Below are positions 33,008 to 37,222 of a stretch of 50,127 nt of DNA, one piece after another. Each line of letters opens with the position of its first letter. Within the stretch, counting starts at the first letter, position 1. This DNA is from Synechococcus sp. UW140 (GTDB taxonomy: Bacteria > Cyanobacteriota > Cyanobacteriia > PCC-6307 > Cyanobiaceae). The position numbers and the translations under genes were made by a program. The stretch covers positions 1-50,127 of the forward strand of contig CAMAVE010000006.1 in assembly GCA_945861595.1 (NCBI GenBank), given 5' to 3'. The notes under the pieces were generated by a model. The model was given only the letters and a program-made list of their open reading frames with translations, ran no database searches and had not been told where the DNA came from.

Positions 33008-33625
33008 TCAACTGCCCCTGCGGGCCATCGCCATGGCCCGCAGGATCGCAGCCGGATCGAGCCACTGGCCCCGATAGCGGATGCCCCAGTGCAGGTGGGG
33101 GCCTGTGGTGCGGCCGGTGATGCCGACATGGCCGATCAGCTCGCCGGCCTGGAGCCGTTGGCCGCTAGCCACCAGCACCTCGCCACTGCGATAGAGCCCA
33201 CCGCTGACCTCACCAGCCAAGTGGCAATAGAGGTGTTCATAGGGACCGGAGCGGATCACCAGGCCATTGCCGCAGGCCCCCCCGGCCAGCACATCACTGA
33301 CGACGCCCCCCCACCAGTTACGGATCGGGGAGCCAAGCGGAGCCGCGATATCGAGCCCGTAGTGGGGCTCCTGTCCGCCGCTGGGACCAGCCCGCAGCCC
33401 GAAATGGCTGGTGTAGCCAAAAAAACTCACCACCGGGAAGACACCCCGGCGCCAGCGGGGCTCGGCCTGGGCTGGCACCGCCAACGATGGCGCCAGGGCC
33501 GCGGCCACGAGCAAGCCCCAAAGGAACAAGCGCTTCCAGGGGCTTAGCCGGCCAGACCCGTTGGAACGCAAGCCTGGGAGCGAATCAGCCCCAGGGCCGG
33601 CGGCCCTAAAGCAATCCCAAGGCAT
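33008..33625 (-). CDS. M23 family metallopeptidase, exported
   Basis: This is a LytM-type peptidase that cleaves or binds peptidoglycan cross-links in the periplasm. The 205-residue product has a signal segment [23 protein letters not shown], then [14 protein letters not shown] with the first zinc ligands (His-x3-Asp), and [15 protein letters not shown] with the final His-x-His. All metal ligands are present, so it should be active. Start is ATG 33625, which overlaps the end of hemH by 20 nt; the open frame also reaches an ATG 6 codons upstream. It follows hemH on the same strand. There is no SH3b, LysM or coiled-coil domain, unlike EnvC/NlpD. Confidence 0.88.
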
Positions 33626-34781
33626 GCAATGGCCCCTGGCCACTAATCAGCTCCAGCAGGAAAGCCGAAAAGCCCAACATGGCCAGGCGCCCATTCCAAA
33701 CTTCGGAACTGTTGTTCCAGCCCCAGGCCCACTTGTCCTGGGGATAGAGCTTGACCGTGCGCGACAGTTCGGCAGCCTGATCCAGGTTCACTTCCGGGCC
33801 TGCCAGGGAGCGCTGCACGAGATCGGCGAGCCCCATGATAAAGCTGGGGCTGATATCGAGGGCGGGCACCCGGCGGAAGTTAGTCACCCCCGCCTCGGTG
33901 GCGATTTCGCGGTACTCGATATCGATTTCTTCGAGGGTTTCGATGTGTTCGCTAACAAAACTGATCGGCACCACCACCAGATCCTTCACCCCATCGGCAC
34001 CCAGCTGGTGCAGGGCATCGTCGGTGTAGGGCCGCAGCCATTCGACCGGACCGACCCGGCTCTGGTAAGCCAGGGTGAAGGGGTTGGCGTGGCCGAGGTC
34101 GGCCTGGAGGCGCTCCATGATCAGGCCTGCGCAGGCTTCGATTTCGGCCTGGTAGGGATCGCCCGCCTCCTCCACATAGCTCTTCGGCACCCCATGGGCG
34201 CTGAAAAAGACATGGGCCGTGCTCGGCACCTCACAGCTCTGGATTTCCTTGGCGATCAGCTCGGCCATCGCCCCGACGTAGCCCGGGTCGTCGTAGTAGC
34301 TGCGGATGCAGCGGATCGGCAGGCGCTCGAAGCCCGGATCCCGCTGGCGCAGGCGCTGCAGTTCCCGGAAGCTGGAGCCGCTGGTGCTGATCGAGAAATG
34401 GGGATAGAGGGGAAGCACCACCACCTCCTCGATGCCATCGGCCTTGATGTCGGCCACCGCCGATTCGGTGAAGGGATGCCAGTAGCGCATCGCCACATAG
34501 GTGGTGGCTTCGATCTGGCGATGGCGCAGCTCGCTCTGGAGCTCCCGCGCCTGGTGCTCGGTGATGCGGCGCAGGGGGGAGCCCCCCCCGATCGAGCGGT
34601 AGGCCGCCTTCGATTTACCGCTGCGCAGGGTGCTGATCAACCAGGCCAGGGGCTTCTGCAGGGCAGGGATCGGCAGCCGGATGATTTCCGGATCGGCAAA
34701 CAGGTTGTAGAGAAACGGGCCCACATCCTCGATGCGTTCCGGGCCGCCGAGGTTCAGCAACAGCACGCCGACCTTGGTCAT
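33606..34781 (-). CDS. hemH: Ferrochelatase with C-terminal chlorophyll a/b-binding (HLIP-like) tail
   Basis: HemH inserts Fe2+ into protoporphyrin IX at the end of haem synthesis. The 391-residue protein begins [20 protein letters not shown], has the active-site His in [19 protein letters not shown] (near residue 196) and the conserved [17 protein letters not shown] block. After a linker with AWGWNNSSE it ends in a single helix with [15 protein letters not shown] (near residue 364), the LHC/HLIP chlorophyll-binding motif characteristic of cyanobacterial and plastid ferrochelatase II. The start is ATG 34781, 21 nt from the divergent recombinase gene, so control sites of the two genes overlap. 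Confidence 0.97.
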
Positions 34782-34802: not shown

Positions 34803-36383
34803 ATGCCCCTGAGCGTAACGCTGCAGGGCCGGAGCTGGGCCTGGCGCGACTGCGATGCCATCGATAAGGTCAGCCCTCCGTTGGGACCGGAAGCAGACGT
34901 GCCGAAGCCCCAGCCCCAGGCGGCCGATCCCCAGGCGCCCGCGGCGGCCAATCCCCTGCCGCCAGGCCATCCCGCCAACGATCGCGAGGCAACCATCCCC
35001 CTGGAGCCCACCCCAGGGCCCTCCCTGGATGCCGAGATCCAGCGCCAGAACGCCCTACTGGCCGCCACCGGCGTTGCCCTGCGCTTGGAGCGGCGCGGCA
35101 ACCGCTTGGGCCTGCGGGGACCCTTGCCCTGCCGCCGCGGTACCGGAGCCCATCCGGTGCAGCGCCTCAGCCTGGGCCTAACCGCCGACGCCCATGGCCT
35201 GGAGCAGGCGCGGCTGCAGCTGCGCCGGCTGCTGCAACAGCTGCAGCAGCAGCGCTTCCACTGGGAGGACTGGAGCCAGATCCACGCCAAACAACCGGGA
35301 TTAGCCCCCACTGCCGCGCCGCAGCCAACCGGGCCGGCCCCCCATCGTCAAAACCTGGGCGATCCCCGATCCCTGCCAAGGCGGCGCCAGGCCAGCGTTC
35401 CAAACCAGGCCCGGCGCCCAGGCCAACGACGACCAGCCCAGGCAGCCGGCCCCCAAGGGCCCCAATCCGGGCCCGTTGCCCTCTCGCCATGGGCCCGCGG
35501 TGAGCTCGCGCCAATCCTGGCAACGTTCGAGCACCAGTTCTTTGCCGATCCCCGCCGTCGCCGCTCTCCGGCCGGCAGCCGCACCACCTGGACCAGCGCC
35601 TACCTGCCCTACCTACGCCGGCTGCAGCAAGCCGCCGGCGAGCTGGGGCTACCACTCACCACGGCCCCGCCGCCTTGGCTGCTGGAGCAGGTGCTGGAGA
35701 GCTATCCCAGCGCCAGCCGGGGCCGCCAACAATGCGGCACCAGCCTGGCGGCCCTAGCCAGCCAGCTGGGGATCGCCCTGCCGGCGGACTGGAGCGAGCG
35801 GGCCGGGGGCTATGGCCTGCATGTGGCCCAATTCCGCCAACTGCCCAACGACCAGGAGATCCTGCGCTGGAGCGAGCGCATCCCCAACCCGGGCTGGCGT
35901 CTGGCCTATGGGCTGATGGCCACCTATGGCTTACGCAACCACGAAATCTTTTTCAGTGATCTCTCGGCCCTGGCCAGCCGCGGCGATCGGGTCATCCGGG
36001 TGTTGCCCACCAGCAAGACCGGCGAACACCAGATCTGGCCCTTCCAGCCGGAGTGGGTTGACGCTTTCGAGCTACCGCGACTGGCGGACAGCAAGGGCCT
36101 GCTGCCACCCGTACGCACGGACCTGGGCCAAACCACCCTGCAGCAGGTGGGCCGGCGGGTGGCCGAACAATTCCGCCGCTATGGCCTGCCCCTGACCCCT
36201 TATGACCTGCGCCACGCCTGGGCCGTGCGCACAATCCACCTCGGCCTACCCGACACGGTGGCGGCCCGGATGATGGGCCACTCGGTGGCGATCCACACCC
36301 GCACCTACCACCACTGGATCACCCGCCGCGACCAGCAACAGGCCGTCGATGCGGCCCTGGCCCGGCGACAGCCGCCTGCCTGA
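34803..36383 (+). CDS. Tyrosine recombinase/integrase family protein, chromosomal
   Basis: The 526-residue product has an N-terminal ~250 residues rich in Pro, Gln, Ala and Arg, mostly disordered but containing a conserved-looking patch ([27 protein letters not shown]). A SAM-like helical arm-type domain follows near residues 235-330. The catalytic domain comes last: Arg in TYGLRNHEI, Lys in [11 protein letters not shown], the box [13 protein letters not shown] (Tyr replaces the usual first His), [16 protein letters not shown] with His and the candidate nucleophile Tyr. No phage genes surround it. Relatives lie beside hemH in other picocyanobacteria as I recall. The start is uncertain because the 5' end is only 21 nt from hemH. 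Confidence 0.85.
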
Positions 36384-36410
36384 CATCAACAGCCGCAGAC
36401 CTAACAGCAT

Positions 36411-36469
36411 CAGCCAAGGGCCTGAGGGCAACAGCCAAGGGCCTGAGGGCAACAGCCAAGGGCCTGAAG
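36411..36469. repeat. 21-bp direct tandem repeat, 2.8 copies
   Basis: Two perfect copies of cagccaagggcctgagggca(a) at 36411-36431 and 36432-36452 are followed by 17 nt of a third at 36453-36469. A diverged partial copy may precede them around 36391. The array lies between the recombinase stop (36383) and cobO start (36503), outside any assigned gene. Confidence 0.92.
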
Positions 36470-36502
36470 ACGCCAGAGTGCCCAGCCTGATGAGGAACCC
36501 CC

Positions 36503-37222
36503 TTGAGCCAGAGCCCTAGCCCTGATCCCATGGGCCAGCGCTGCCCCGACCAAGACTCCCAAGGGCAAAACCTGGATCAGGCCGCCGCCGAGCTCGGACC
36601 GGGCGGCGACCTGGCCCCCGAGGGCGATGCCGAGGGCTACCGCAAGCGCATGGCCCGGCGCCGGGAGGTCCAACAACAACGGGTGGGGGAGCGCAACCTG
36701 GAAAAGGGCCTGGTGTTGGTGTTCACCGGCGATGGCAAGGGCAAAACCACCGCCGCTCTGGGCCTGGTGCTGCGCAGCCTGGGCCATGGCGACCACGTGG
36801 CGGTGGTGCAGTTCATCAAGGGGGGCTGGCAACCGGGCGAAGCCCGGGCCCTGCAGCTGTTCGGCGAGGCCCTGGCCTGGCATGCCCTCGGCGAGGGCTT
36901 CACCTGGGAAACCCAGGACCGGGAGCGGGACCGGCAGCTGGTGCAGCAGGCCTGGCAACGGTCCTGCGAGTACCTGGCCGATGGCAGCCGCAAATTGGTG
37001 GTGCTCGACGAGGTGAATGTCGCCCTCAAACTGGGCTACCTGGGCCTCGATCAGGTGCTGGAGGGCCTGACCCTGCGGCCGCCACTCACCCATGTGGCCC
37101 TCACCGGCCGCGGTGCGCCCCCAGGCCTGATCGAGCGCGCCGACCTGGTCACGGAGATGAAACTGGTGCGCCACCCCTTCCGCGAACAGGGGGTCAAGGC
37201 CCAGGCCGGCATCGAGTTCTGA
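36503..37222 (+). CDS. cobO: Cob(I)yrinic acid a,c-diamide adenosyltransferase
   Basis: CobO adenosylates the cobalt of the corrin intermediate in cobalamin synthesis. The 239-residue product has the Walker A loop [19 protein letters not shown] (about residues 74-92), [16 protein letters not shown], and [15 protein letters not shown] with the Walker B Asp-Glu. The N-terminal 55 residues are polar and variable. Start is TTG 36503 because GAGGA lies 6 nt upstream; an ATG at 36530 is the alternative. Picocyanobacteria make pseudocobalamin, and this gene belongs to that pathway. Downstream pyrH follows after 110 nt in the same direction. Confidence 0.93.

Follow-up and report, generated by a model that had tools for sequence, protein, structure and literature searches.

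Several arrangements of tyrosine recombinase and target site are known that resemble the locus studied here. In the XerCD-FtsK-dif arrangement, the two paralogues XerC and XerD, which carry a His in the HxxR box, act with FtsK at a single palindrome in the replication terminus. The archaeal XerA, a protein of about 290 aa, acts as a single enzyme; to our knowledge, it lacks a domain for arm binding, and no arms of the TGTCC type accompany its site. XerH and XerS are also single enzymes, and both act with FtsK. Integrases of the lambda and Tn916/Tn1549 type possess an additional N-terminal domain and use helically phased direct-repeat arms beside a core with a 7-bp overlap. Phages of the CTX-phi type, which have no integrase, exploit XerCD through a copy of the host terminus site.

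In cyanobacteria, FtsK is described as essentially missing (PMC7766704) and xerC as rare (PMC5101192), and dif prediction succeeded in none of the cyanobacteria tried (0/5; PMC3025954). For the most abundant phototrophs of the ocean, both the enzyme and the dif site that would separate fused chromosomes are lacking in the open-licence literature. Here, we describe a tyrosine recombinase gene of Synechococcus sp. UW140 from the window (the whole stretch of DNA analyzed, 50,127 nucleotides of contig CAMAVE010000006.1). The enzyme, a precisely defined site, and the phages found to contain it constitute a testable candidate answer to the question of chromosome separation, and they point to a possible integration route for cyanophages without an integrase of their own.

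Results

The recombinase gene, 526 codons followed by a stop, forms an open frame at positions 34803-36383 of the plus strand. Its sole Pfam match is Phage_integrase (PF00589), at residues 367-504 and just over the cut-off. The preliminary description had recognized the box I Arg, the TSK Lys, and the LRH and GHS motifs, together with a Tyr in place of the first His of the HxxR box (YDLR). All of these are present: R378 (35934-35936), the β-hairpin K405 (TSKTG; 36015-36017), Y467, R470, and H471 (YDLRH, with YDLR at 36201-36212), H493 (GHS; 36279-36281), and the presumed nucleophile Y502 (TYHHW; 36306-36308). Across the aligned orthologues from 111 loci, some of which represent one genome reached via two collections, R378, K405, Y467, R470, H493, and Y502 are invariant (111/111). 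The exchange of His for Tyr is thus real and fixed, and no orthologue examined has lost a catalytic residue. Tyr at the first HxxR position is known in active members of the tyrosine recombinase superfamily.

The NCBIfam Xer models score 12-17 bits against the UW140 protein, and their cut-offs are 220-330. With every Xer model so far under its cut-off, the protein, judged by its sequence profile, is not XerC or XerD itself. An XerC/D-like role had been suggested earlier; the identity with XerC/D falls on these scores, and the Xer-like part of the suggestion is supported by the terminus palindrome described below.

The start codon at ATG 34803, 21 bp away from the divergent hemH start, is doubtful. 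In a close relative (L033), the first in-frame start aligns near residue 29 of the UW140 protein, and a GTG at 34899 offers an alternative start. About 30 residues of the head as read here may not belong to the protein.

We built an AlphaFold2 model of the recombinase with 55 orthologues. The preliminary description had assigned the protein a disordered head of 250 residues, and this applies to two segments only, residues 1-67 (34803-35003) and the linker of residues 162-231 (35286-35495), both of which are predicted to be disordered and are mostly missing in orthologues beyond the genus. Between them, residues 73-160 (35019-35282) form a confident helix-three-strand-helix domain (pLDDT mostly 84-97; mean 88.8 when modeled alone) with the conserved motif LRxERRGxRLxLRGPLP..QRxSLGL. 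From its topology, its position, and the arm repeats near the terminus core, we propose that the model depicts an arm-site-binding domain. A PDB fold search with this domain alone gave nothing significant. The core-binding and catalytic domains follow at residues 236-522 (35508-36368), whose nearest folds are XerA, XerH-difH, Tn1549 Int, Cre, and lambda Int. XerA 5hxy is the top fold match, and a sequence-profile comparison with the PDB gave a single relative, XerA 4a8e (E = 1.7e-4). The folded parts are under purifying selection, with dN/dS of 0.10-0.15 for residues 230-526 and 0.08-0.36 for residues 75-160; values are higher in the head and the linker (0.36-0.84), which evolve more rapidly.

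The gene is genuine and complete and has been passed on vertically. Exactly one copy of the orthologue is found in each of the 64 sampled Cyanobiaceae (64/64). At E ≤ 1e-60, 217 of 390 genomes of the class Cyanobacteriia contain an orthologue, and 173 (about 44%) have no match at this threshold. A smaller, earlier sample that included fragmentary genomes contained a few Cyanobiaceae without a match, most of them 62-77% complete; one (G029) has no match though it is listed as 95% complete. The recombinase therefore belongs to the core genome of a large lineage but is not universal in cyanobacteria, and its role is not phylum-wide. In the comparison of the recombinase tree with the neighbor tree (53 loci), two supported splits conflict, and the same congruence test gave two to seven supported conflicts for ilvB, hemH, tal, and pyrH, so the vertical inheritance proposed earlier agrees with the phylogeny.

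All readable Cyanobiaceae loci share the order hemH(−), int(+), cobO, pyrH, and no phage genes adjoin. In UW140, hemH lies at 33606-34781 on the minus strand and cobO at 36503-37222 on the plus strand. The setting between hemH and cobO and the lack of phage neighbors, first noted for UW140 alone, are thus general among these loci, and a patchy distribution with phage-like neighbors was not seen in the family. Because hemH is also the divergent neighbor outside the family, in at least 9 of the 20 genomes sampled there, the hemH-recombinase pair is ancient. With its single copy, fixed synteny, and congruent tree, the reading of the gene as a vertically inherited housekeeping gene is sustained. 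A tandem repeat of a unit of about 20 bp (ccaagggcctgagggcaaca) occupies positions 36405-36470, between the recombinase gene and cobO.

Synpcc7942_0136 is probably the S. elongatus orthologue that lies beside hemH (probably in L192). It has been described as a phage integrase and listed as foreign in a minimal-genome study (PMC3025956). If it is the orthologue, our data suggest an ancestral gene rather than a foreign one.

The terminus regions of four complete genomes were read. Comparison of intergenic sequences revealed a repeat array next to the gene of an RHH/J protein. Associated with this array is a palindrome, GCGTAMCTGY-N7-RCAGKTACGC, which is usually single-copy in a Cyanobiaceae genome. 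In a class-wide pattern search, it occurred in 40 Cyanobiaceae genomes, usually once, and the reversed control pattern gave zero matches in the family. Allowing three mismatches added five more members, so that all testable non-HL Cyanobiaceae have it (45/45); among the 64 sampled, only 18 HL Prochlorococcus and UW140 itself are without a match. The UW140 contig ends about 440 bp 3' of the RHH gene, ahead of the expected core. The HL Prochlorococcus cores have diverged and are only partly palindromic: in the five HL genomes that were read, the sequence is CTGY-N7-RCAGTAC, and TGTCC repeats stand exactly at −66 and −55.

Measured from dnaN, the core falls on the opposite side of the chromosome, at 0.466-0.524 of its length, in 12 of the 13 complete genomes whose record begins with this gene, the exception being G271 (0.333). 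TGTCC is present at −57 to −55 in 29 of the 45 distinct host cores; a second TGTCC is found at −66/−67 or about −78, one or two helical turns farther out. The leuS-dapF intergenic region at the T/A skew peak was also considered as a dif site and was rejected since it has no conserved palindrome. The MED4 core is at about 829.2 kb, within the terminus window of 826-832 kb at which the vesicle DNA of Prochlorococcus MED4 peaks (PMC10913375). The same study invokes XerCD for the MED4 terminus (PMC10913375); XerCD was not found in the MED4 genome.

Beyond Cyanobiaceae, the class-wide search found the core in 8 of 326 genomes, which is background level, and it was absent from 22 other-family genomes, most of which have the recombinase. 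In other families, the target of the recombinase may be different.

In the 22 loci read, AGACT/AGTCT half-sites, clustered about 12 bp apart, lie 3' of the RHH/J gene; in nearly all of these loci, UW140 with its contig end excepted, the half-sites are followed by the TGTCC repeats and then by the palindrome. The RHH/J protein has a weak N-terminal ribbon-helix-helix and a C-terminal J domain, and is encoded near the terminus in 22/22 Cyanobiaceae searched, for example, at L153:18898-19908 (MIT9301) and G000 contig 59:449-1450. Searches of 8 genomes from other families did not recover it. The protein may serve as an accessory factor or belong to a centromere-like system.

One genome, G075, contains a further complete core, accompanied by four phased GGACA repeats (contig 1:759807; L283:1501-1529); another tyrosine recombinase gene (766.7 kb) lies some 7 kb away. 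This second core probably serves as att site for an integrated element whose core is of a similar type.

The core also occurs in viruses. It was found in 83 IMG/VR stretches, of which 80 were read (L287-L366), and removal of near-duplicates left 68 distinct contexts. A control palindrome with altered arms gave 58 virus records, only 8 distinct contexts, and no TGTCCA arms. Because the control returned so many records, we do not rely on raw virus counts and use distinct contexts and arm enrichment instead. Within 110 bp, the 68 contexts contain 111 copies of TGTCCA/TGGACA, against 7.3 expected. The outermost spacer bases of the virus cores are Y and R in 134 of 136 cases; with the spacer edges thus fixed, the variable overlap is 7 bp. 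The overlap CTGTAGACA of many marine Synechococcus is identical in three virus contexts (0.25 expected, p = 0.0025). Taken alone, the inner seven spacer bases give the same three matches, which are then not significant (p = 0.07).

At least 33 of the 80 virus loci have T7-like terminase or RNA polymerase genes, and the T7-like loci are nearest to Prochlorococcus phage P-SCSP1 (MPP-C; 74%). No PF00589 tyrosine recombinase was found in 48 of the 50 core-bearing virus contigs searched whole, an absence that may in part reflect fragmentary contigs. Phage P-SCSP1h itself has a related site, CTGCGGAACTG-TCATAACGA-CAGTACTACAG, between the terminase gene and the genome end. In this MPP-C phage, whose host is MED4, the right arm of the related core (L430:37372-37402), CAGTACTAC, equals the right arm of the MED4/MIT9301 hosts. 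An exact search for the HL Prochlorococcus core found none in viruses. A looser HL pattern gave 114 matches, none of which, among those read, had three or more arm repeats, and we attribute these to chance.

No competing candidate for dimer resolution emerged from the genomes tested. FtsK/SpoIIIE (PF01580) was not found in six Cyanobiaceae genomes searched, UW140 included, in agreement with PMC7766704, and no XerC/D over the cut-off was found in 36 cyanobacteria. In the single-contig, Prochlorococcus-type genomes G123, G190, G015, G374, and G133, the first three of which we take to be Prochlorococcus MIT9301, MED4, and SS120, the recombinase orthologue is the sole PF00589 protein. An slr0733-type XerC was considered as a replacement where the recombinase is missing. 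It is present in only 34 of 390 genomes, often alongside the recombinase, and the two are therefore not complementary. Most other XerD-model matches in cyanobacteria look integron-integrase-like, and chromosomal recombinases of this kind are common in larger cyanobacteria (L119-L141).

Discussion

As read from its sequence, the terminus site combines inverted core arms, a free 7-bp overlap, and phased direct repeats, which is the form used by arm-plus-core tyrosine recombinases. The site is present at the terminus of genomes in which the recombinase is the sole PF00589 protein, and it is also found in phages that have no integrase. The simplest account of the terminus core, the sole recombinase, and the integrase-less phages would be a Xer-like resolution system with the UW140 enzyme. 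We infer that the protein binds and recombines the site, that TGTCC is recognized by its N-terminal domain, and that the system serves to resolve dimers; the proposed tie between protein and site rests on exclusion and geometry.

In the mechanism we propose, picocyanobacteria would have kept an active, single arm-plus-core (lambda/Tn916-like) tyrosine recombinase as a chromosomal housekeeping enzyme. Its target would be the compound site at the replication terminus, 3' of the conserved RHH/J-domain gene. There, the core-binding and catalytic domains would bind the core, two inverted arms of about 10 bp around the 7-bp overlap, and the N-terminal domain would bind the TGTCC direct repeats at −55/−56 and 11 or about 22 bp farther out. 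Strand exchange at two such sites would allow dimers to be resolved with neither FtsK nor XerC/D. Cyanophages that have the same core and arms and no integrase would probably borrow the host enzyme and integrate transiently. We regard the whole account, Xer-like chromosome resolution by a phage-type (arm plus core) recombinase without FtsK that is exploited by integrase-less phages, as reasonably probable. That dimer resolution in picocyanobacteria is organized unlike XerCD-FtsK-dif, relying on a single integrase of the heterobivalent type, on a compound site at the terminus whose arm repeats are phased, and probably on the neighboring RHH/J protein as an accessory, and that integrase-less T7-like phages hijack it via an attP copy, is in our judgment evenly balanced between right and wrong.

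Rather than being a recombination core, the palindrome could be bound by a different protein, be it RHH/J, a fork-trap protein, or a nucleoid protein, with the recombinase acting elsewhere or on another site, which we consider unlikely. In Cyanobiaceae, the RHH/J gene and the AGACT/AGTCT array do have the palindrome directly on their 3' side, the recombinase gene is far from it, and other families have the recombinase without the core. RHH proteins bind short repeats, but such repeats are already supplied by the AGACT/AGTCT array, and the virus copies have the core and TGTCCA arms without this array (0.8 AGACT/AGTCT per kb at virus cores versus 9.2 per kb at host cores). Moreover, a 7-bp spacer that varies freely between fixed Y/R edges, together with arms in 11- or 22-bp phase, fits a recombination site better than an operator.

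A domesticated integrase of a phage or island, devoted mainly to integrating or excising mobile DNA and with the terminus site as its attB, is quite improbable. Its single copy, purifying selection, and fixed synteny across the family and beyond argue against this, services to phages alone would not be selected in the host, and no inserted element was seen at the site in the loci read. These observations outweigh, in our view, the arm-plus-core design, the att-like sites of viruses without an integrase, and the second G075 core with its four arm repeats near another recombinase gene, all of which such an integrase would explain. A DNA-binding or regulatory relic without recombination activity, as the His-to-Tyr exchange and the divergent arrangement with hemH might suggest, is hardly credible, since all other catalytic residues, the nucleophile included, are invariant and active superfamily members with this Tyr occur.

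A Xer-like role of the UW140 recombinase remains our preferred reading, and it can be set against the known systems. From XerC and XerD the protein differs in its Xer model scores, in the HxxR His, in the lack of a second paralogue, and in the lack of FtsK in the genomes tested; what it would share with them, if our attribution is correct, is the single dif-like palindrome at the terminus. Lambda Int and the Tn916/Tn1549 integrases resemble it in the catalytic fold, the additional N-terminal domain, which is predicted to be folded and strand-rich and gave a nonsignificant PDB fold search, and, at the level of pattern, the helically phased arm-type repeats beside a core whose overlap measures 7 bp. 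Unlike these integrases, it is a single-copy host core gene with no mobile element around it, and the hemH-int-cobO synteny holds in all readable orthologous Cyanobiaceae loci.

The core-bearing viruses resemble the CTX-phi-type phages in having no integrase and in carrying a copy of the host terminus site. In contrast to these, they are T7-like tailed cyanophages (near P-SCSP1) that would use a different host enzyme, and their integration is a prediction. The T7-like cyanophages S-TIP37 and P-SSP7 integrate during lytic infection (PMC8776855). These two encode their own integrase and use tRNA-Leu, whereas the core-bearing contigs mostly have no integrase and have a different core.

Among single-recombinase Xer systems, XerH/difH and XerS offer one enzyme with one dif-like palindrome, and XerH-difH is among the best fold matches. 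Conversely, no FtsK was found in the Cyanobiaceae tested, the Xer models remain far under their cut-offs, and XerH and XerS lack the extra N-terminal domain with arm repeats. There is also a likeness in organization to the archaeal XerA/dif, with its single enzyme, absence of FtsK, and palindromic terminus site, from which the UW140 recombinase differs in its extra N-terminal domain and in the proposed TGTCC arms of its site. As in these single-recombinase systems, one vertically inherited enzyme would be paired with one terminus site.
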